Source: a virus | Direction: 5' to 3' (one strand) | IMG/VR virus record: IMGVR_UViG_3300030090_001253 | Span: 1-44,838 of that record | DNA: 44,838 nt | Shown here: one piece after another, positions 3,271-41,944 of the stretch | Layout: each line of letters opens with the position of its first letter | How positions within the stretch are numbered: the first letter of the stretch is position 1 | The notes under the pieces: model-generated | Told to the model about the DNA's origin: nothing | What the model saw: only the letters and a program-made list of their open reading frames with translations | The model's database searches: none | Program-made: the position numbers and the translations under genes

Positions 3271-3486
3271 TTGACACAGAACATAATTACAATAGACGGC
3301 AAAGAATACAAGCCAGAAGACATGGACGAAAAGCAGACGTATTTGATTAGTCAGATTCGTTCTTGCCAAAACAAAGCTGCGAACATTCGCTTTGAACTCG
3401 ACCAAGTACAAGCTGCACAGAATGTATTCATTAATGAACTTATCAAATCAGTGCAACCTGAAGGGGTAGAAGCAGAGGTAGGATAA
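3271..3486 (+). CDS. Small conserved phage protein, TTG start
   Basis: A 71-residue protein beginning (M)TQNIITIDGKEYKPEDM, then a helical region from about residue 22 to 60 (QTYLISQIRSCQNKAANIRF and onward). It starts with TTG at 3271, preceded by GGAGAATAAA; no in-frame ATG fits. It resembles the small 'TIDGKEY'-type phage proteins found beside tail genes, which have a short beta hairpin followed by a helix; function unknown. Its stop overlaps the start of the next fibre as TAATG, so the two are translationally coupled, which suggests a role linked to that fibre. Confidence 0.7.
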   Translation: MTQNIITIDGKEYKPEDMDEKQTYLISQIRSCQNKAANIRFELDQVQAAQNVFINELIKSVQPEGVEAEVG

Positions 3487-3833
3487 TGCCATATTTAGGT
3501 AAGACACCCTCGCAAGCAACTCGCAAGCGATACTACAAAACAGCCAGCGGTAGTGAGACATCTATTTCTGGCACCATGACTGTTGGTGGTACTCTTACCT
3601 TTACTGACGGTGAGTTTGTTGATGTGTCAGTCAACGGTGTAGCACTAGTTGCTGGTACAGACTATAACACAGACACTGCTAACACAATTGCTGGCCTGTC
3701 TGCCCTGTCTGCGAACGACCAAGTAGAGATTGTTGTCTACGACACGTTTAGTGTGTTCAGTGGCGATGTAGACAGCAACATGAGTGTGGGCGGTAATCTA
3801 AGTGTTACTGGCACCACTGCACTTACAGGTAAT
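3486..3833 (+). repeat. Fibre head module, copy 2
   Basis: Second copy of the module at 435-782, colinear without gaps and differing mainly at synonymous sites. Confidence 0.8.
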
Positions 3834-24620: not shown

Positions 24621-26159
24621 TTACAAATCGACTTCTTGTAAGTCAAGCCAATTATCGCCCATTTTTATTTCGATGCCGACAGGCATATCATAAGTCACGT
24701 TGTAACGACGATTCGTTTCGTACGGCAAACACAGCATGGCCTCCTTCATCAGCTTGATACAGATGTCTATTTCGCTTGGGTGTGCATCGATAACAATCGA
24801 ATCGTGCACGGTGTTACATATCACAGACTGTAAGTTATTTTCTGCGAAGAATCCGTCGAGTTCGACTAGAGCGATAGGTAACAGATCCGCTGTAGCGAAC
24901 CCCTGTACGGGATAGTTACAGATGTTAGTGCGATATGTAGCCGTTCCGTACTGTGTCCACCGCGCATCAGGGAAAGCATACTGCCTCCCACTTGGAAGGG
25001 TGATTACGCGCTTTTCTACGGCCTCTCGCTGGAGGTAATCGTGCCAGTTGGTTACCCCCTCATACTTATCCTTGAAGGCTCTGTAGTAGCGTTGTTGGTC
25101 CTCTGTGCCCGTAGTGCCACCATAAAGTGGTTTGAAGGTATGTGCCTTCGCTTCTTGACGAGAACAGCCTATCACGCTAGCAGTGTAGCTGTGCACATCT
25201 GTGCCCTGTCCTACATCGATATACACCTGACTGTCTCTCGCAAGAAACCCTGCTACCCTGAACTCCAGTTGCGAGTAATCGCCTTCGATAATCTTGCCGC
25301 CTTGAAAGCGACTCTCGACAACCTTCCTGATCTCAAATGTGTTACCTCGTGGCATATTTTGAAAGTTAGGATTGCGGCTCGAAAGGCGACCCGTCGCCGT
25401 AACACACTGCATAAATTCAGGATGTATGAATCCCTTGTCGTCCACATTGTTTTTCATACCCTCTACAAAAGTTCCTAAGTACATCCGGAGTGCGTTGTAT
25501 CTGACGTACGCATCTGCGAACTCACGAGCGGGACCGCTGAGTGTGTCTCGTATCTCAGCTAGAGTCTCCTTGTCCGTCTTGAATCCTGCCGATGCAACGT
25601 CACGCACGTTACGTGGTATTATCTTAAACCCAGCAACCTGTCCCGTTGAGTGATAGATCACACCCTTGCCACTGCATTGTTTACACACACGCAAAACTTT
25701 GCTTGGTGTGCCGTTTTTACGTACGGGACGCACACGACCAAAGCCTAGACAAGTCGGACACCGTTGTCCCTCTGTCTTGAAGATGATATCTGTTTTGCTA
25801 CTTACGTGTGCCTTGAAGTCCTTCTTGGTCATGCGAGTGCGCTGCTTGGGTTTCATCGTAGCCCCACGCTGCTCCATGCCCAAGTTAAAAACAGCAGACC
25901 ACGTGTTCTTGTCTTTGACCTTGCGGGAATATAAGAGCATGGACCTGTCGTCAGGACTGGTTAGACTGACAGGTGTGTCACCCATAGCCTCACGAGCCAT
26001 GTCGTTGAGGCGCAACTCTAGCGCATCTAACTCATCCTGATACTGTCGTTCTATCTCTGCGAGTGTCTCTAAATTTACACGCAGTCCGTTGCGTTCAATA
26101 CGCGACAGTGTGTTAGCCATCTCAAACGATAGGCGTAGTGTTGGTACCAAATTGCTCAC
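24621..26159 (-). CDS. Family A DNA polymerase with embedded DnaJ-type zinc module
   Basis: A 512-residue replicative polymerase domain. Motif A is DYSQLEFR (residues 294-301); motif B is R334-x3-K338-x3-F342-x3-Y346-G; motif C is VHDSIVID (His452, Asp453). The residue equivalent to E. coli Pol I Phe762 is Phe342. Residues 134-165 hold two CxxCxGxG-type units (CPTCLGFG at 134-141 and CKQCSGKG at 159-166), the DnaJ central-domain insertion known from SAR116 phage HMO-2011. The proofreading exonuclease is encoded by the separate upstream gene. The start is GTG 26159 with AAGGA 7 bases upstream, inside the exonuclease 3' end (38-base overlap). Confidence 0.93.
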   Translation of the reverse strand: MSNLVPTLRLSFEMANTLSRIERNGLRVNLETLAEIERQYQDELDALELRLNDMAREAMGDTPVSLTSPDDRSMLLYSRKVKDKNTWSAVFNLGMEQRGATMKPKQRTRMTKKDFKAHVSSKTDIIFKTEGQRCPTCLGFGRVRPVRKNGTPSKVLRVCKQCSGKGVIYHSTGQVAGFKIIPRNVRDVASAGFKTDKETLAEIRDTLSGPAREFADAYVRYNALRMYLGTFVEGMKNNVDDKGFIHPEFMQCVTATGRLSSRNPNFQNMPRGNTFEIRKVVESRFQGGKIIEGDYSQLEFRVAGFLARDSQVYIDVGQGTDVHSYTASVIGCSRQEAKAHTFKPLYGGTTGTEDQQRYYRAFKDKYEGVTNWHDYLQREAVEKRVITLPSGRQYAFPDARWTQYGTATYRTNICNYPVQGFATADLLPIALVELDGFFAENNLQSVICNTVHDSIVIDAHPSEIDICIKLMKEAMLCLPYETNRRYNVTYDMPVGIEIKMGDNWLDLQEVDL

Positions 26160-26703
26160 TGTAGATTCCTTCGAATGTTGTGCCTAGCACGTCGAGTTGT
26201 TTGTACGCTATCTCTTCTGTAGCCGCAACATCAGATGTGCCGTACTCTTTGATTATCTCCCACGGTATCTCATAAAACGTCTTACCCTCGTCCAGATACG
26301 GCTGAACAAGGTCTTTCTCTTTTTGCACCGTGTTATACTTTTTTGCAAGAGCAGCAAGTCCAAGAGGCCATCTCCGCGCTTTCGATAGAACATACTCTGT
26401 AACCATAGTATCATAGATAAAACCCTCATATACAAATCCACAGTCTCGTATCCACTGCAGATCAAACTTTATGTTTTGTCCGACAAGCACAGTTGCGTAA
26501 TTCAACGCAGTCTGAAAGTCTTGTGCCGCGCTTGGTGTAGGCGGCTCAGTCTCATGGTAGTAGCAATCGTAGAACACTTGCTCTTCGTCAGACCACTTGT
26601 AACCTATTGAAACTAAACGATTACCAAAGTAGGGCAAAGCAGTCGTGCCCCCCGATGGTTTGTGTGTGTGGGTTGTCTCCACATCGAACGTCAAGACATT
26701 CAC
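26122..26703 (-). CDS. DNA polymerase-associated 3'-5' exonuclease
   Basis: A 193-residue DnaQ/Pol I-type proofreading exonuclease. Exo I is FDVETT (Asp7, Glu9), Exo II is NIKFDLQW (Asp81), and Exo III is Y154-x3-D158 (EYGTSDVAA). GTG 26703 is preferred as start: GGAGGAG lies 5-6 bases upstream and it overlaps the preceding TGA as GTGA; an ATG at 26718 would bury that ribosome-binding site inside the gene. It ends 38 bases inside the polymerase gene in another frame. In many phages these domains form one chain; here they would form two polypeptides that probably associate. Confidence 0.85.
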   Translation of the reverse strand: MNVLTFDVETTHTHKPSGGTTALPYFGNRLVSIGYKWSDEEQVFYDCYYHETEPPTPSAAQDFQTALNYATVLVGQNIKFDLQWIRDCGFVYEGFIYDTMVTEYVLSKARRWPLGLAALAKKYNTVQKEKDLVQPYLDEGKTFYEIPWEIIKEYGTSDVAATEEIAYKQLDVLGTTFEGIYSEQFGTNTTPIV

Positions 26704-26849
26704 TCCATCTCCTCCCACCGCTTCGTTGCGAAATATCGTGCGAGTGTAGCTATAGACTCTGCGTTCAGTTGTGGATACTTCTTCTCCAGACGATGATACT
26801 CTTCATCGTATAGGTTCTCTTTGATCTCTTCGTTTTGGTGATTGCTCAT
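26700..26849 (-). CDS. Small helical protein, 49 residues
   Basis: Starts with ATG 26849, one base after the stop of the membrane peptide gene, and ends TGA overlapping the exonuclease GTG. The product begins MSNHQNEEIKENLYDEEYHR and continues with LEKKYPQL and SIATLARYFATKRWEEME, a charged helical protein. It fills the gap between neighbours exactly, uses overlaps like the rest of the operon, and is therefore likely real. Function unknown; a small accessory to the polymerase or helicase is possible. Confidence 0.6.
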   Translation of the reverse strand: MSNHQNEEIKENLYDEEYHRLEKKYPQLNAESIATLARYFATKRWEEME

Positions 26850-32416: not shown

Positions 32417-33430
32417 ATGCTTGATTTAGTACCACAACGGGCGGTGGATTCCGCCGATATTAACGATCGGGTCGTACAGGTCCGACACAAAGACATTGAC
32501 GACGTTAGCCTATACGAACGCTTTGGACAAATCCGTCGGGTTCCGATTGAGGCATTGACCAGCACACTAGACAAGACCCCATCTGGCGAAATTATACGGG
32601 AAATTGTCCAACCGACCCGCATGGATGGTTTCCACGCATTGCAGAACTGGGCGACGGGTGCGCTGCTCAATGTCAGGCCAGTCAGCAAAACTTATGCCCT
32701 TGTTCCCCACGATGAGCTTTTTGCACAACAGGCTGAGATATTGCGAGATAGCAATATTCCCTTAGATGATGTTGATGTTCTAGATCGGATCTATGAACAA
32801 GGGGCGCGGGTTCACCGAACAATCCACTTCAACGATATGCAAAGCCAGCACGACACTAGGTCAGGCCAGCCGGATGTGGTGCGCTGCAGGATGGACATAT
32901 TTAATTCTGTAGACATGTCTTGGGCTTTCCAGATATTCAGCGGTGCATATCGTGACTTATGTCGTAACACGCTAGTGTTCGGCGGGGAAAAGGCCTACCA
33001 CCAGCGGCGGGTTCATAGGGGTGCTTTGTCACCGGAAGCTATGATCGAAAAGGCGACGATGGGCTTGGATATGTGGCAAAACCAAAAGGAACAGATGCGC
33101 TTGTGGCGTAAATCCCCACTAACTGATCGGGCTTTTGCTGGCATCCTCAAGGATACGATCTGCAAGAAAAACACGAAGGCTGCAGCAGTCGATGAGAACT
33201 TGTCGGTGAACGAACGACGCCTAAACTGGATGCTTGAAAGATTCAGTGAGGAAAAGAAGGAATTGGGGTCAACCTTGTGGGCTGGGTTCAATGCCTTGAC
33301 GCATTGGTCTACGCATTTACCAGATGCGCGGGATCAAGGTCGTAACGAGTGCAAGCGATATGCTAGAGCGGATCAGGTTCGGCAGATTGTCGATGGGGCT
33401 GCTTGGCGCAATCTAGAACTGGCGGCATGA
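32417..33430 (+). CDS. DUF932 family phage/plasmid protein
   Basis: A 337-residue protein of the DUF932 type. Recognisable core: TYALVPHDELFAQQAEIL, a strand-helix region, then VRCRMDIFNSVDMSWAFQIF followed by SGAYRDLCRNTLVFGG, the family's most conserved stretch. The C-terminal part is helical and basic. DUF932 proteins occur on phages and plasmids and are of unknown function. Start follows AAGGGA. It stands alone between inverted repeats and a tiny membrane peptide, and may be transcribed as a separate early unit. Confidence 0.82.
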   Translation: MLDLVPQRAVDSADINDRVVQVRHKDIDDVSLYERFGQIRRVPIEALTSTLDKTPSGEIIREIVQPTRMDGFHALQNWATGALLNVRPVSKTYALVPHDELFAQQAEILRDSNIPLDDVDVLDRIYEQGARVHRTIHFNDMQSQHDTRSGQPDVVRCRMDIFNSVDMSWAFQIFSGAYRDLCRNTLVFGGEKAYHQRRVHRGALSPEAMIEKATMGLDMWQNQKEQMRLWRKSPLTDRAFAGILKDTICKKNTKAAAVDENLSVNERRLNWMLERFSEEKKELGSTLWAGFNALTHWSTHLPDARDQGRNECKRYARADQVRQIVDGAAWRNLELAA

Positions 33431-35954: not shown

Positions 35955-37625
35955 ATGGCAGGTCGTCCCAAGAAAGACCCCAACGCTCCCAAAGCTACGT
36001 ACCACCTGTCCAAGCGGGAACTTGCCCGTCGTGCCGCCCAAAAGAAACTTACAGCAGCCAAGAAGAGTGCAGAGAAGGTAACCAAACGAGCGGAGGGAAA
36101 GCGTAAGTATGCTAAGAAGATTGCGACTAGCATGGGCAAAGTTGAAAATGCCCTCAACGCCAAAGCTACCACAGTTATCGATCAGGGGGATCTTGCCGAT
36201 CTGCCCCCTCCGGTCACTGACCTCGTCGAAGATGCAGAAGTTATATTCAAGCCTAACGACGGTCCCCAAGAAGATTTCCTGTCTGCTGGCGAACGTGACG
36301 TTCTTTACGGAGGGGCCGCCGGGGGAGGCAAAAGTTTTGCGCTTCTTGCGGACCCGCTACGTTATTGTCACAATCCTAACCATCGTGGTCTACTCCTGCG
36401 CCGTACTCTTGATGAGTTAACCGAACTTATAGACAAGTCACGCCAGCTATACGTCAAAGCGTTTCCCGGTGCGAAGTTTCGTGAGTCGAAGTCTACGTGG
36501 CACTTCCCGTCTGGTGCTACGATCTGGTTCACCTACCTCGACAAAGACAAAGACGTAACCCGCTTTCAAGGACAAGCATTCAACTGGATAGGTATCGATG
36601 AAATCACACAATACCCCACTCCTTATGTCTGGGACTACTTGCGTTCTCGCCTTCGCACTACTGATCCTGAACTCCAGCAACACTTGTACATGCGCTGCAC
36701 TGCCAACCCGGGGGGAGTGGGAGGTTGGTGGGTCAAGAAAACCTACATAGAGGGAGTCGAACCCAACAAGGCATTCCCTGCCTTCGACATAGAAACAAAG
36801 AATAACTTCTTGTGGCCCGACGGTCACGAAAAAGCGGGGCAACCTCTCTTCTACCGCAAGTTCGTTCCTGCACGTTTGACTGACAATCCGTACCTCATGG
36901 CGGACGGACAGTACGAAGCGATGCTCAGATCGCTACCAGAAGTCGAACGCAAAAGACTCCTAGAGGGTGACTGGGACGTAGCGGAGGGAGCAGCCTTCCC
37001 AGAGTTCTCTCGTGAAAAGCACGTTGTAGAGCCATTCGAACTTCCGACGAATTGGCCCCGGATACGAATGGCGGACTACGGTTACGCTGCACCATCGTGT
37101 GTTCTGTGGGGCGCAATCGATTGGGACAACAACATCTGGATCTACAGAGAGTTATATCAAAAACACTTGACAGCAGAAGAGTTAGCTGCTAAAATACTAA
37201 AAGCTGAACAACTAGATCCTCTACCGCATTACACGGTCCTTGACTCGTCTTGCTGGAACAAGACAGGTTTTGGGCCTTCAATCGCAGAAGTGATGATGAG
37301 GGCGGGTGTGAGGTGGACGCCTTCAGATAGAAACCGCATACAGGGCAAGATGGAGATACACCGTCGTTTAGCTGATGATTCATACACAAAAGAACCACGC
37401 CTACGCTTCTTTTCTTCTTGTCAGAATATTATCAAACAGATTGCGGGTATACCCTTGTCTAAAACAAACAGTGAAGACGTAGACACAAAGGCTGAAGATC
37501 ACGCATACGACGCTCTGCGCTACGGAATGATGACACGCATGAGCGGATACGCTTCGATACACCAACAGTTGCACTCCATAAAGAATCAGGTGCATCAAGT
37601 ACAAGATGAGGTCTTTGGCTACTAA
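35955..37625 (+). CDS. terL: Terminase large subunit
   Basis: A 556-residue packaging motor. Residues 119-127 are Walker A (GGAAGGGKS); FNWIGIDEI is Walker B with the catalytic Glu; MRCTANPGG is the coupling motif. The C-terminal RNase H-type nuclease shows Asp in MADYGYAAPS, Asp in VLDSSCW, and Asp in AEDHAYDALRYG. It cuts concatemeric DNA and pumps it into the prohead through the portal. The first 55 residues are a Lys/Arg/Ala-rich extension with an AT-hook-like GRPKK at 3-7. Stop overlaps the next ATG (TAATG). Confidence 0.93.
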   Translation: MAGRPKKDPNAPKATYHLSKRELARRAAQKKLTAAKKSAEKVTKRAEGKRKYAKKIATSMGKVENALNAKATTVIDQGDLADLPPPVTDLVEDAEVIFKPNDGPQEDFLSAGERDVLYGGAAGGGKSFALLADPLRYCHNPNHRGLLLRRTLDELTELIDKSRQLYVKAFPGAKFRESKSTWHFPSGATIWFTYLDKDKDVTRFQGQAFNWIGIDEITQYPTPYVWDYLRSRLRTTDPELQQHLYMRCTANPGGVGGWWVKKTYIEGVEPNKAFPAFDIETKNNFLWPDGHEKAGQPLFYRKFVPARLTDNPYLMADGQYEAMLRSLPEVERKRLLEGDWDVAEGAAFPEFSREKHVVEPFELPTNWPRIRMADYGYAAPSCVLWGAIDWDNNIWIYRELYQKHLTAEELAAKILKAEQLDPLPHYTVLDSSCWNKTGFGPSIAEVMMRAGVRWTPSDRNRIQGKMEIHRRLADDSYTKEPRLRFFSSCQNIIKQIAGIPLSKTNSEDVDTKAEDHAYDALRYGMMTRMSGYASIHQQLHSIKNQVHQVQDEVFGY

Positions 37626-39556
37626 TGGCTGCTGGAACTCCCCCATATATAATAGAACAAACTGATTATGATCCTAGAACTATAACTCTGGGTGACTTTA
37701 TTAAACTGTATGAAACTGAATCTACTGAGGTGGGCGGTAGAAAAAATAGCACGTGGGGAAACAAGATACGTAAAAATGCGGTATACAAAGACCTTCTTAA
37801 TGAACCTGTAATCAACATACTAGATGCTACAAAACAAATAGACGGAAAGAACATCTACAAAGCAGCACAAGATGCTGTAAAAGAAGCAAAAGGTGATTTT
37901 CAAAGTAAACTACGTACCATAGAAAACAACATCCTTCCAAAAATTAAAGAAATTCAAGCAAGGGAAGGTATTGATTTAAGTAAATTCACGTCTCTGACTG
38001 ACACAGTTCCCAAGATACGAACTGCTGGCGCAAAGAAGACTGCAACTACGCAGTTTGATAGCAATAAGATGGGAGATCTTATCGCAAATCTAGAGGATCA
38101 CGTCAAGAAGAATCCTAAAGATCGCCCAGCAGCAAATGCAATTTTATTACTGTTAGAGATGGGGGCACGTCCCAGCCTACCCACAGAAATTATTAGCACT
38201 GACTATGTTGAAACTACTGTAACTCCAGAATCAGAAATGTTGGGGGTAGGAATTAAAAACGATGGCCTACACATTCCAGCAGAAAGAAAGGGTGTAAAGA
38301 GACAAGCAGGGGGACAAACTCCTAACGTGCAACCATTCAACGCTCCCTTGTCCCAGAGGGCAATAACCATTCTTCAAGACCAAAGCAGATACAACTCAGA
38401 GAACTTTGGTGACAACAGAAGATTAGATAACTTTTTTCAAGTTGAAAATGCAGACGGCACCCTCAGACCTTTAGATTTAGACAAAGATGTAAACCCACTC
38501 TTAAAAATAGTCACACCCTCCGGCACGGTTAGAAAATTAAAGGATGGAAAGTTTGTACCAACAGACGATCCTCTCACATCTAAAAACTTCAGAACTATCT
38601 GGACGAACATTGCTAACAATGCCCTAAACGACCAAGCTAAAATTGCTGCCTTACAGTCTCGTGACGTAGGTACAAACACAGGCTCTGTTGCTGTTTACTT
38701 AGGACAAGCTGGAGACTACCAACCTGCAGCCGTAGCTGACTTAAATGAAATCAGTAGAAAGTCTTGGGGACTATACACTCTGAGAAACGAAGTGGGTAAA
38801 GAAGAATTTACAAAAGGTAATCTACTTTCTACTTCCACCTTTTTGTTCGACACATCCGAAAACGAAAGAAGCTACGAAGTATTCGGTAGAGGTCAAGCTG
38901 CTAACGTGCCCATCCAAGTCGGAGGATTCTCTGCGCCAAGAGCGGATGTAGACCAGCAAGTCAAAAGAGAAGCGGCCCAGACTGAAGACCCAGAGCAACG
39001 AGGAAGAGTCAGTGACTTTTTAAATAGGTTCTTTCTTGGATCTATAGTCACAGGACTGGGCGTCGAAGTCGCTACATCTGATGACCCCTTGATGACAACA
39101 GCAGCCCTCGCAGGAGAGGAAGCCAGAGACGAAACCATATACCAAGCGGCAAAGACTGTCCTCCCTCCTCAAGCTAGAATTGTTGCCGAAGCTGCCCCTA
39201 TGATTCTAGGAGCAACTGCGACCCAACAAGACCTTACGCCACACGAATTAGAGGCTATGAATATACAAGCAGAGGCACAGTTTAAACGACAACAGAGAAG
39301 AGACGCTAGGCTTGAAGAGGCAATGTCTGCAGCAGGAGGAAGCCCACCAGCAGAGGGCGGCGAAGAAATACTCACACCATACTCTACGATGGTTGACGAG
39401 GCATTAAGAGACTCCGCTATGCCTACAGAGATTGTCACTGAACAAGACAGAATAAATAGAATGGAAGAAATAGTAACCCAAGACGCAGGGTTTATGAACA
39501 GGGATGAAGCCCCTATGCCACAACAAGCTAGGCAAGATAGCTTCGCAAACTTTTAA
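37625..39556 (+). CDS. Tyrosine-recombinase-like protein of unknown role in the head-gene operon
   Basis: A 643-residue protein. Residues 20-120 resemble a core-binding helical domain (TLGDFIKLYETES, KNIYKAAQDAVKEA). Residues 165-365 follow the order of a tyrosine recombinase catalytic domain: AILLLLEMGARPSLPTEI (box I, Arg182), a strand region with AERKGVKR, PLSQRAITIL, FRTIWTNIANNAL, then LQSRDVGTNTG (Arg346) and VYLGQ where box II usually has H-x2-R and LGH. The His positions are Leu and Gln, so activity is doubtful. Residues 400-643 are unrelated, acidic and Gln-rich. It lies between terminase and portal. Confidence 0.5.
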   Translation: MAAGTPPYIIEQTDYDPRTITLGDFIKLYETESTEVGGRKNSTWGNKIRKNAVYKDLLNEPVINILDATKQIDGKNIYKAAQDAVKEAKGDFQSKLRTIENNILPKIKEIQAREGIDLSKFTSLTDTVPKIRTAGAKKTATTQFDSNKMGDLIANLEDHVKKNPKDRPAANAILLLLEMGARPSLPTEIISTDYVETTVTPESEMLGVGIKNDGLHIPAERKGVKRQAGGQTPNVQPFNAPLSQRAITILQDQSRYNSENFGDNRRLDNFFQVENADGTLRPLDLDKDVNPLLKIVTPSGTVRKLKDGKFVPTDDPLTSKNFRTIWTNIANNALNDQAKIAALQSRDVGTNTGSVAVYLGQAGDYQPAAVADLNEISRKSWGLYTLRNEVGKEEFTKGNLLSTSTFLFDTSENERSYEVFGRGQAANVPIQVGGFSAPRADVDQQVKREAAQTEDPEQRGRVSDFLNRFFLGSIVTGLGVEVATSDDPLMTTAALAGEEARDETIYQAAKTVLPPQARIVAEAAPMILGATATQQDLTPHELEAMNIQAEAQFKRQQRRDARLEEAMSAAGGSPPAEGGEEILTPYSTMVDEALRDSAMPTEIVTEQDRINRMEEIVTQDAGFMNRDEAPMPQQARQDSFANF

Positions 39557-39574: not shown

Positions 39575-39808
39575 ATGGCAAACAAAACCACTGGAAACTA
39601 CAACTTTGGTGAATCATACATTATGAATGCAGACAAAGTGTCTGTAGACAACGATGAAGGTGCATCTACACTCTACCGTGAGGGTCTTGAGTTTGACACT
39701 CGCGCTCAAACAGGAGTGTTGACTGAAGACATGCCAAAGAAACAAACCAAGACGACTATTGATCCGTCATTTGACACAATGGCTGAAGACAGAAATTACT
39801 TTAGCTAG
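39575..39808 (+). CDS. Hypothetical small protein upstream of portal
   Basis: A 77-residue acidic, polar protein (MANKTTGNYNFGESYIMNAD...), ending TMAEDRNYFS. No hydrophobic core or known motif; likely extended or disordered. It has a strong GGAGGAACCG ribosome-binding site, suggesting high expression. Its place just before the portal suggests a small head protein. Confidence 0.6.
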   Translation: MANKTTGNYNFGESYIMNADKVSVDNDEGASTLYREGLEFDTRAQTGVLTEDMPKKQTKTTIDPSFDTMAEDRNYFS

Positions 39809-39820
39809 AAAGTAACATCT

Positions 39821-41944
39821 ATGGAAGATAGGTTTTTAGAACCTGCCAGCGATGAGCAGATTGACGTAGCGTCCCCTGAAGATCAGATGCCAAACTTAGC
39901 CGCATACATTCGCGGCAAGTTTGAGGATTCTGAAAACGGAAGGTACGCATACGAACAACGATGGCTACAGGCGTACAAGAATTTTCGTGGTATCTACGAC
40001 TCCACTACTCAGTTTAGAGATAGTGAAAGATCTAAGGTATTCATAAAGATTACTAAGACTAAGGTTTTGGCTGCATATGGACAGATAGTAGATATCTTGT
40101 TTGCAAACAAAAAGTTTCCCATAGTCGTAGAGTCAACTCCTGTTCCAGAGGGTGTGGCTGAATTTGCTCATATGCAAACTCCCCTAGATAGTGTGATTCA
40201 ACCAGAAACCCCAACAGATCCTTACGGGTTCGATGGAGATGGTAGAGAACTACCCCCCGGTGCAACACAAGCACAAGAACCTAAACACTTCTTGGGTGCG
40301 TACTCTAAGAACATGGAAAATGCTCCTGTGGTAGAGGGTAGGGCATTGGCGGGGGAGCCGCAAATATCTCCCGCACAAAAATCTGCTCTAGAATGTGAAA
40401 AGATTATACACGATCAGCTTATCGACACAAATGCGGTAACTGTCATACGTAAAAGCATCTTTGAATCTGCTTTACTTGGCACAGGAGTCGTAAAAGGTCC
40501 GATGAATATGTACAAGCGTATTCATAGGTGGGAAACTGATGACAGTGGAGAGCGTACATACAACCCTTATGAAAAGGTTGTACCAAGAATAGAACACGTT
40601 TCTATTTGGGATTTCTATCCTGATCCGTCCGCTGTCAACATCGATGACTGTGAATACGTGATACAACGTCATCGAATGAGTCGGCAACAGGTTCGTAGCC
40701 TTCTTATGATGCCACATTTTAGACAAGAAGAAATAGAAGCCACTCTAGCTGAAGGGCCAAACTACGAGGATAAATACTACGAAGACACCATCAGACAGGA
40801 TGAGACTGAGGCGTATTACAACGAAAATCGTTTTGAAGTCCTAGAATATTGGGGCGTAATCGATGCGTATATGGCAGAAGCCGTTGGCATGGATACGGAG
40901 GATATACCTGATGAGTTTTCACAGGTACAGATTAATGCGTGGATATGTGGTAACAACGTACTACGATGTGTAATCAATCCATTTACACCTAGTCGTATAC
41001 CGTTCTTCGCTCTTCCATACGAAATCAACCCATACCAAATCTGGGGCGTTGGTGTGGCAGAGAACATGGAAGACGCACAGATGCTGATGAACGGTCATGT
41101 TCGTATGGCGATAGATAACCTCGCTCTTGCAGGTAACTTAGTATTCGATGTAGACGAAGCATCTCTCGTACCCGGACAAAACATGGATATCTTTCCCGGC
41201 AAGATATTCCGCCGCCAGTCAGGGGTCACCGGAACAGCCGTAAATGGCCTCAAGTTTCCGAACACGGCTGGTGAAAATATACAGATGTATCAAATCAGTC
41301 GCCAACTTGCAGACGAAGAAACTGGCCTTCCCTCTATCATGCACGGTCAAACTGGCGTTAGTGGCACGGGCAGAACAGCAGCAGGTTTATCTATGCTTAT
41401 GGGCAGTGCTAGTTTGTCCATGAAGACTGTAGTTAAAAATGTAGACGATCATCTTCTAAAGCCGTTAGGAGAATCTTATTACCAATGGAATATGCAGTTT
41501 AATGACACCATGACTGATCTCAAAGGAGATCTAGAAATAAAACCTCGTGGTGTGGCTGCGGTGATGCAAAAGGAAGTGCGTAGTCAAAGACTGATAGGTC
41601 TTTTACAAACTGTTGCCAATCCTATGCTTGCTCCGTTCATCAAGATACCAAACCTTATGCGAGAGTTAGCCATATCACAAGACATAGATCCAGACAGTCT
41701 AGTCAATGATGTAAACGAAGCGCAGATTTATGCTCAAATGCTACAGGGAATGATGCAAGATGCTCAACAAAGATCAGGCGAGGCAGGTGGCTCACCTCGT
41801 GAACAATCAGAAGGCGTGGGAGGGGCTGGAGACGTACCTCAACAGCCTCAAGGAAATGACGGTGAAAGCCCTGACGGTAGCACAATCGGAGTCGGAACTG
41901 CGCCAACTGCAGGGGAAGCTGGTTTTACTGGAAACCTTACTTAA
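39821..41944 (+). CDS. Portal protein
   Basis: A 707-residue protein matching podovirus-type head-tail connector portals in position (after terminase, before scaffold and capsid) and texture. The N-terminal region (YEQRWLQAYKNFRGIYDS, FIKITKTKVLAAYGQIVDIL), the WDFYPDPSA and QRHRMSRQQVRSL segments, and the helical GRTAAGLSMLMGSASLSMKT are typical of marine phage portals. It forms the dodecameric ring through which terminase packs DNA. The last 60 residues are Gly/Gln/Ser/Pro-rich and low in complexity, and this part overlaps another gene in a different frame. Confidence 0.82.
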   Translation: MEDRFLEPASDEQIDVASPEDQMPNLAAYIRGKFEDSENGRYAYEQRWLQAYKNFRGIYDSTTQFRDSERSKVFIKITKTKVLAAYGQIVDILFANKKFPIVVESTPVPEGVAEFAHMQTPLDSVIQPETPTDPYGFDGDGRELPPGATQAQEPKHFLGAYSKNMENAPVVEGRALAGEPQISPAQKSALECEKIIHDQLIDTNAVTVIRKSIFESALLGTGVVKGPMNMYKRIHRWETDDSGERTYNPYEKVVPRIEHVSIWDFYPDPSAVNIDDCEYVIQRHRMSRQQVRSLLMMPHFRQEEIEATLAEGPNYEDKYYEDTIRQDETEAYYNENRFEVLEYWGVIDAYMAEAVGMDTEDIPDEFSQVQINAWICGNNVLRCVINPFTPSRIPFFALPYEINPYQIWGVGVAENMEDAQMLMNGHVRMAIDNLALAGNLVFDVDEASLVPGQNMDIFPGKIFRRQSGVTGTAVNGLKFPNTAGENIQMYQISRQLADEETGLPSIMHGQTGVSGTGRTAAGLSMLMGSASLSMKTVVKNVDDHLLKPLGESYYQWNMQFNDTMTDLKGDLEIKPRGVAAVMQKEVRSQRLIGLLQTVANPMLAPFIKIPNLMRELAISQDIDPDSLVNDVNEAQIYAQMLQGMMQDAQQRSGEAGGSPREQSEGVGGAGDVPQQPQGNDGESPDGSTIGVGTAPTAGEAGFTGNLT

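Follow-up and report, generated by a model that had tools for sequence, protein, structure and literature searches.

The 44.8-kb stretch of DNA analysed here (hereafter the window) is the record of a marine virus of bacteria. Its replication genes (a DNA polymerase in two ORFs, a helicase, a primase, a ribonucleotide reductase and an endonuclease) are those of an HMO-2011-kind podovirus, and its nearest isolates by large terminase subunit (TerL), at ~50–55% identity, are Pelagibacter and Roseobacter phages, the same group being returned by the portal. TerL is followed by a 643-residue ORF that was confirmed as real and whose ATG shares one base with the TerL stop codon (TAATG), next by an ORF of 77 residues and finally by a portal of the SU10 type [Table 1]. 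The location of the 643-residue product between large terminase and portal, which an earlier reading made from the sequence only had pointed out, was thus confirmed. Neither a second copy of the recombinase encoded by this ORF nor a tRNA was found in the window. The 77-residue ORF, whose product ends in AEDRNYFS, is retained in relatives (L001, L022, L089 and L090) whether or not they carry the recombinase.

Three further observations concern other parts of the window. The DNA polymerase is split into overlapping ORFs on the minus strand (24621–26718), an exonuclease part (26122–26718) and a polymerase part (24621–26159), both of which match PHROG_17 over neighbouring profile ranges; a frameshift, a split gene and an assembly error are all possible. 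Genes of the tail-fibre region have repeated 5′ ends (434–733 versus 3485–3784; 300 nucleotides, 80% identical), and a 24-nucleotide start is common to three of them (starts at 435, 2023 and 3486). Finally, a DUF932 protein is encoded at 32417–33430 (PF06067, E=3.5e-20).

Table 1 Features of the TerL–portal region, with positions given in the window and residues numbered in the 643-residue protein
Feature	Position	Strand	Basis
Terminase large subunit (TerL)	35955..37625	+	PHROG_979, E=1.4e-59
Tyrosine recombinase, 643 aa, with acidic C-terminal extension	37625..39556	+	ORF, homology, fold
N-terminal helical domain, residues ~20–135, in core-binding position	37682..38029	+	AlphaFold helices H22-35 to H89-114
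Catalytic domain, residues ~140–400	38042..38824	+	AlphaFold; top 21 PDB matches, every one a tyrosine recombinase
Arg182, box I arginine (GARP)	38168..38170	+	77/77 homologues
Lys225, beta-hairpin lysine	38297..38299	+	67/77 homologues
K320-N-F-R323, HxxR box, His replaced by Lys	38582..38593	+	R323 in 76/76 homologues reaching the column
L-Q-S-R346, LGH box, His replaced by Arg	38651..38662	+	Arg in 42/76, His in 33/76 homologues reaching the column
Tyr358, predicted nucleophile	38696..38698	+	74/76 homologues reaching the column; model helix 351–359
Acidic, largely disordered C-terminal extension, residues 431–643	38915..39553	+	AlphaFold model, charge count
Conserved small ORF, 77 aa, in the recombinase–portal gap	39575..39808	+	Similar ORFs in L001, L022, L089, L090
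Portal protein, SU10 type	39821..41944	+	PF23899, E=1.6e-25; PHROG_332, E=1.5e-78

Fold, homology and active-site residues of the 643-residue protein

AlphaFold yielded a confident model of the core of the protein (mean pLDDT of 86.7 over residues 1–430), and the best 21 matches in a fold search of this model against the PDB were all tyrosine recombinases. The full-length model gave the same picture. Taken individually, the matches were modest (best E=0.007) and their TM-scores low, perhaps because the arrangement of the domains differs from that in DNA-bound structures. The sequence-only reading had proposed a core-binding domain followed by a recombinase catalytic domain; this was supported over residues ~20–400, and the tyrosine-recombinase fold was obtained in the interval (residues 160–380) in which it had been expected.

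On its own, the window protein matched no Pfam family and no PHROG integrase, and produced no score over the curated cut-off of PF00589 (Phage_integrase). Its relatives and integrases were sought among 50,697 phage records and none was found, nor did the core types of L036 and L053 match anything when searched against phages. The relatives that we identified are metagenomic viral contigs, many of them fragmentary and some sampled twice, the sample consisting of relatives from viral contigs together with 80 contigs fetched through their TerL. An ORF of 500–970 residues separates TerL from portal in almost every contig of the clade, and 81 of 83 TerL–portal products were joined in one BLAST cluster. 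PF00589 was matched by 24 of 77 homologues (E<=0.01), and a PHROG integrase by 40 of the 77 sampled products on their own; a member of an outer branch (L097) scored 105.9 bits against Phage_integrase and displays all of the canonical boxes. Subfamilies were linked by stepwise HMM searches with decoys, hhalign of the subfamily alignments being uninformative. An HMM built from the close relatives of the window protein matched the entire core of L027 (E=4e-60), L072 (E=2e-50), L022 and L078, while the best reversed decoy against this HMM gave E=0.43. L072 in turn matched the PHROG_1 integrase (E=8.8e-15) and L027 matched PHROG_216 (E=8e-10). Searched against solved structures, a profile of all 77 homologues retrieved a XerC-like protein (E=4e-11) and XerD (E=2e-7), and also Tn1549 Int. 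The link between the window protein and integrases, running as it does through stepwise intermediates, is by these sequence comparisons independent of any single alignment. On account of the fold and of this stepwise homology, rather than of the histidines considered below, the product of the window ORF is almost certainly a tyrosine recombinase.

The register of the catalytic motifs was set by an alignment of the 77 homologues, in which the mean column identity of the family is 12%. Read in this register, the window copy harbors the box I arginine, the beta-hairpin lysine, the HxxR arginine and the tyrosine nucleophile that mark the superfamily, and is devoid of the HxxR histidine (K320) and of a histidine or tryptophan in the LGH box (R346). 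Most homologues have S, K, Y, T or A at the first of these two positions; the arginine that the window copy presents at the second is unusual. The catalytic histidines are the less constant positions among tyrosine recombinases. Despite the low mean column identity, R182, R323, R/H346 and Y358 are retained in 97–100% of the family, a pattern which, judging from the alignment, exceeds chance by far.

The motifs on which the sequence-only reading was built (GARP with Arg182, LQSRD with Arg346, and VYLGQ) are all present in the protein, and the usual histidines are indeed replaced in the window copy. The assignment of the boxes, however, was shifted by one motif: the alignment identifies KNFR323 as the HxxR box and LQSR346 as the LGH box, and the VYLGQ segment, formerly equated with the LGH box, holds the putative nucleophile Y358. 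It is because the boxes were read one motif too late that the protein had appeared degenerate and lacking a conserved tyrosine. In fact, the column of Y358 is nearly invariably Tyr, the Arg-Lys-Arg-Tyr set is kept, and dN/dS ratios of 0.007–0.19 over the core, calculated from close pairs of relatives, indicate strong purifying selection on the core in these relatives. The window copy is likely to be catalytically competent, a rating that we make no firmer because both histidines are replaced.

Slot occupancy, core replacement and the acidic tail

All 106 complete TerL–portal intervals from contigs whose TerL is at least 73% identical to that of the window contained an ORF of at least 450 residues. 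At 60–73% TerL identity, the presence of the slot ORF was patchy, nine intervals having it and two being without. In a second, independent sample, drawn through a different core type, every contig of sufficient length had TerL upstream of the recombinase and the portal downstream of it, TerL either adjoining the recombinase directly or lying within reach of a longer recombinase N-terminus. The embedding of the gene in the packaging/head operon, another element of the sequence-only reading, was thus borne out and is conserved across the clade. In the isolates inspected, the TerL–portal interval was empty or occupied by small ORFs only, and that of HTVC103P, HTVC115P and HTVC033P contained no recombinase. 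The same slot of outer relatives accommodates an FAD oxidoreductase in RHph_N3_19, a GDSL lipase in phiM6 and an HNH-like protein in MW202701. The occurrence of unrelated enzymes at this site (L007, L008 and L010) suggests that it is a general slot for accessory genes.

Among 44 pairs of genomes with TerL C-termini at least 95% identical, 30 had recombinase cores of less than 32% identity, against a background from reversed sequences with a mean of 23% and a 95th percentile of 28%. The DNA of L060 and L061, for example, is 99.1% identical through position +4 of the start codon, is without similarity over the core and regains 93% identity 200 nucleotides before the stop codon, so that the last 60 residues of the two proteins are 98% identical and their cores show background identity. 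The nearest TerL relatives of the window (L076, L023, L024 and L025) carry four other core clusters, and the distribution of 24 core clusters over 69 genomes cannot be explained with fewer than 45 changes when mapped on the TerL tree. As judged from these genome comparisons, cassette exchange affects the recombinase core, with TerL and in many cases the tail remaining in place. Since the exchanged block of L060 and L061 consists of the ORF alone, any attachment site linked to the allele must be located either within the ORF itself or at some other place in the genome. Wholesale exchange of the working half of the protein suggests a replaceable tool with an ever-changing target.

Other origins of the pattern were considered and rejected. 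Assembly chimaeras as its main cause are opposed by the recurrence of the clusters in many independent contigs, by junctions that are always in frame and by divergence that begins at the start codon. A recombination site at the end of TerL that would allow self-exchange was not supported, third codon positions there being hardly more conserved than in the rest of TerL, nor were invertible segments, no long inverted repeats being tied to the recombinase gene.

The acidic C-terminal extension described in the sequence-only reading was confirmed: it comprises ~210 residues, is mostly unstructured in the AlphaFold model, includes a single long helix (539–570) as well as a mildly hydrophobic stretch, and bears a net charge of −19 (counted from ~20 residues past Tyr358 to the end) versus +1 for the core. 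A C-terminal extension was found in all complete members (n=69), with a median of 263 residues beyond the Tyr region, and was nearly always acidic (median net charge of −11, versus +4 for the core); an Ala/Gly-rich, mildly hydrophobic segment is frequent in these tails. The tail follows phage lineage more closely than core type and tends to stay within a lineage when the core changes (L024, L025, L030, L076 and L080), an exception being the tails of the window and L076, which are 28% identical. Such constancy could simply be due to DNA similarity outside the exchanged block. Converse mosaics were also seen, L049/L068 and L097/L098 having near-identical cores and differing tails (56% and 17% identity, respectively).

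Proposed function and alternatives

The best overall explanation, which we put forward tentatively, is that of a late-made, probably virion-associated recombinase of changing specificity that is probably still catalytic. The N-terminal ~400 residues would provide the DNA-binding and catalytic core and the C-terminal ~210 residues an acidic, mostly disordered extension. The enzyme would be made late, together with TerL, would be attached by its tail to the virion or to a packaging component, and would act on DNA either in the course of packaging or as soon as the DNA has been ejected into the next cell, the target site differing between alleles. An association with the virion or packaging machinery, favored because of the operon position and the tail, is possible yet not quite probable, and we infer late expression and virion association from gene order and the tail only. 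Whether an allele-specific target is the reason for the swapping, as core exchange leads us to favor, appears evenly balanced. More doubtful is a specific form of this explanation, in which a virion-carried, exchangeable, site-specific recombinase would be loaded via its acidic tail and delivered along with the DNA, and would act on a host, prophage or rival-element site in the next cell or on the phage's own genome; alleles would then be swapped as targets or counter-defences vary.

An ordinary temperate-phage integrase that chances to sit in the packaging operon, and whose swaps alter the attachment site, is unlikely but a serious rival. Temperate-phage integrases do undergo exchange, which counts in its favor, and the protein is the sole tyrosine recombinase detected in near-complete records; in four records of 54–56 kb, neither a second one nor an HTH_3 repressor was found by searches that miss divergent proteins. 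Some HMO-2011-type phages are, moreover, temperate, and CRP-3 integrates (PMC9038755). However, the known int of HMO-2011-type phages, likewise a tyrosine recombinase and the presumed lysogeny integrase of these related phages, differs from the window recombinase in sitting upstream of the replication module (PMC9038755, PMC8528129). That neither an HTH_3 repressor nor a tRNA was found further argues against an ordinary integrase, as do a pattern-limited search of 84,980 bacterial and archaeal genomes that returned no TerL of the clade and the failure to find prophages of the clade in bacterial genomes. No recombination site or attP was identified for the window recombinase, and the swapped DNA consists of the ORF only, with no adjacent attP changing alongside.

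The position in a late operon, adjoining TerL, and the preserved catalytic residues would also suit a Cre/Xer-like resolvase acting on genome multimers or assisting concatemer processing for packaging, the role proposed for phiCbK gp143 (PMC3556154). This second serious rival we deem quite unlikely, as it leaves unexplained the exchange of cores between almost identical phages, and outer relatives with the same TerL and portal manage without the protein. Like the window protein, gp143 is a tyrosine recombinase, and phiCbK is not known to be temperate; gp143 differs from the window recombinase in having 208 residues, in being restricted to a catalytic core and in belonging to the replication module (PMC3556154). 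The proposal of the sequence-only reading, a recombinase fold retained purely for a structural, DNA-binding role and devoid of catalysis, is in keeping with the location, with the replaced histidines of the window copy and with a structural family member, baculovirus VLF-1 (PMC3649998), but is improbable given that Tyr358 (74/76) and both arginines (all homologues reaching the columns) persist at 12% mean identity, retention of the nucleophile being unexpected under a purely structural role.

The window recombinase resembles Cre, lambda Int, XerD and Tn1549 Int (PF00589) in its fold, box order and Arg-Lys-Arg-Tyr set. Unlike PF00589 integrases, it has both histidines replaced, a 210-residue acidic C-terminal extension, a TerL–portal location and a hypervariable core. 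A recombinase serving as a virion component, considered new in the sequence-only reading, has a precedent in VLF-1 of baculoviruses and bracoviruses, a virion component of the tyrosine-recombinase family whose Tyr is needed for infectious virus; these are insect viruses, and the accessible text reports no allele swapping (PMC3649998). Neither VLF-1 nor phiCbK gp143 is described with a TerL–portal slot, an acidic tail or swapping. To judge by the open-access literature and the collections searched, the phage slot, the acidic tail and the swapping of cassettes are apparently new; an earlier mention of the locus may exist in a supplement.

Few marine viruses are more abundant than HMO-2011-type phages; no identifiable lysogeny genes were reported in subgroups IV–X, and members without an identified lysogeny gene have been regarded as potentially obligate lytic (PMC9038755). 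If the present clade belongs to the HMO-2011-type phages without identified lysogeny genes, these would possess a recombinase that escapes ordinary annotation, the window copy itself matching no family. The locus makes the question of a lytic or temperate lifestyle testable and supplies no fewer than 24 divergent clusters of recombinases, all from a single site. Wholesale replacement in a fixed slot of otherwise near-identical phages amounts to a natural experiment on the forces behind recombinase specificity.
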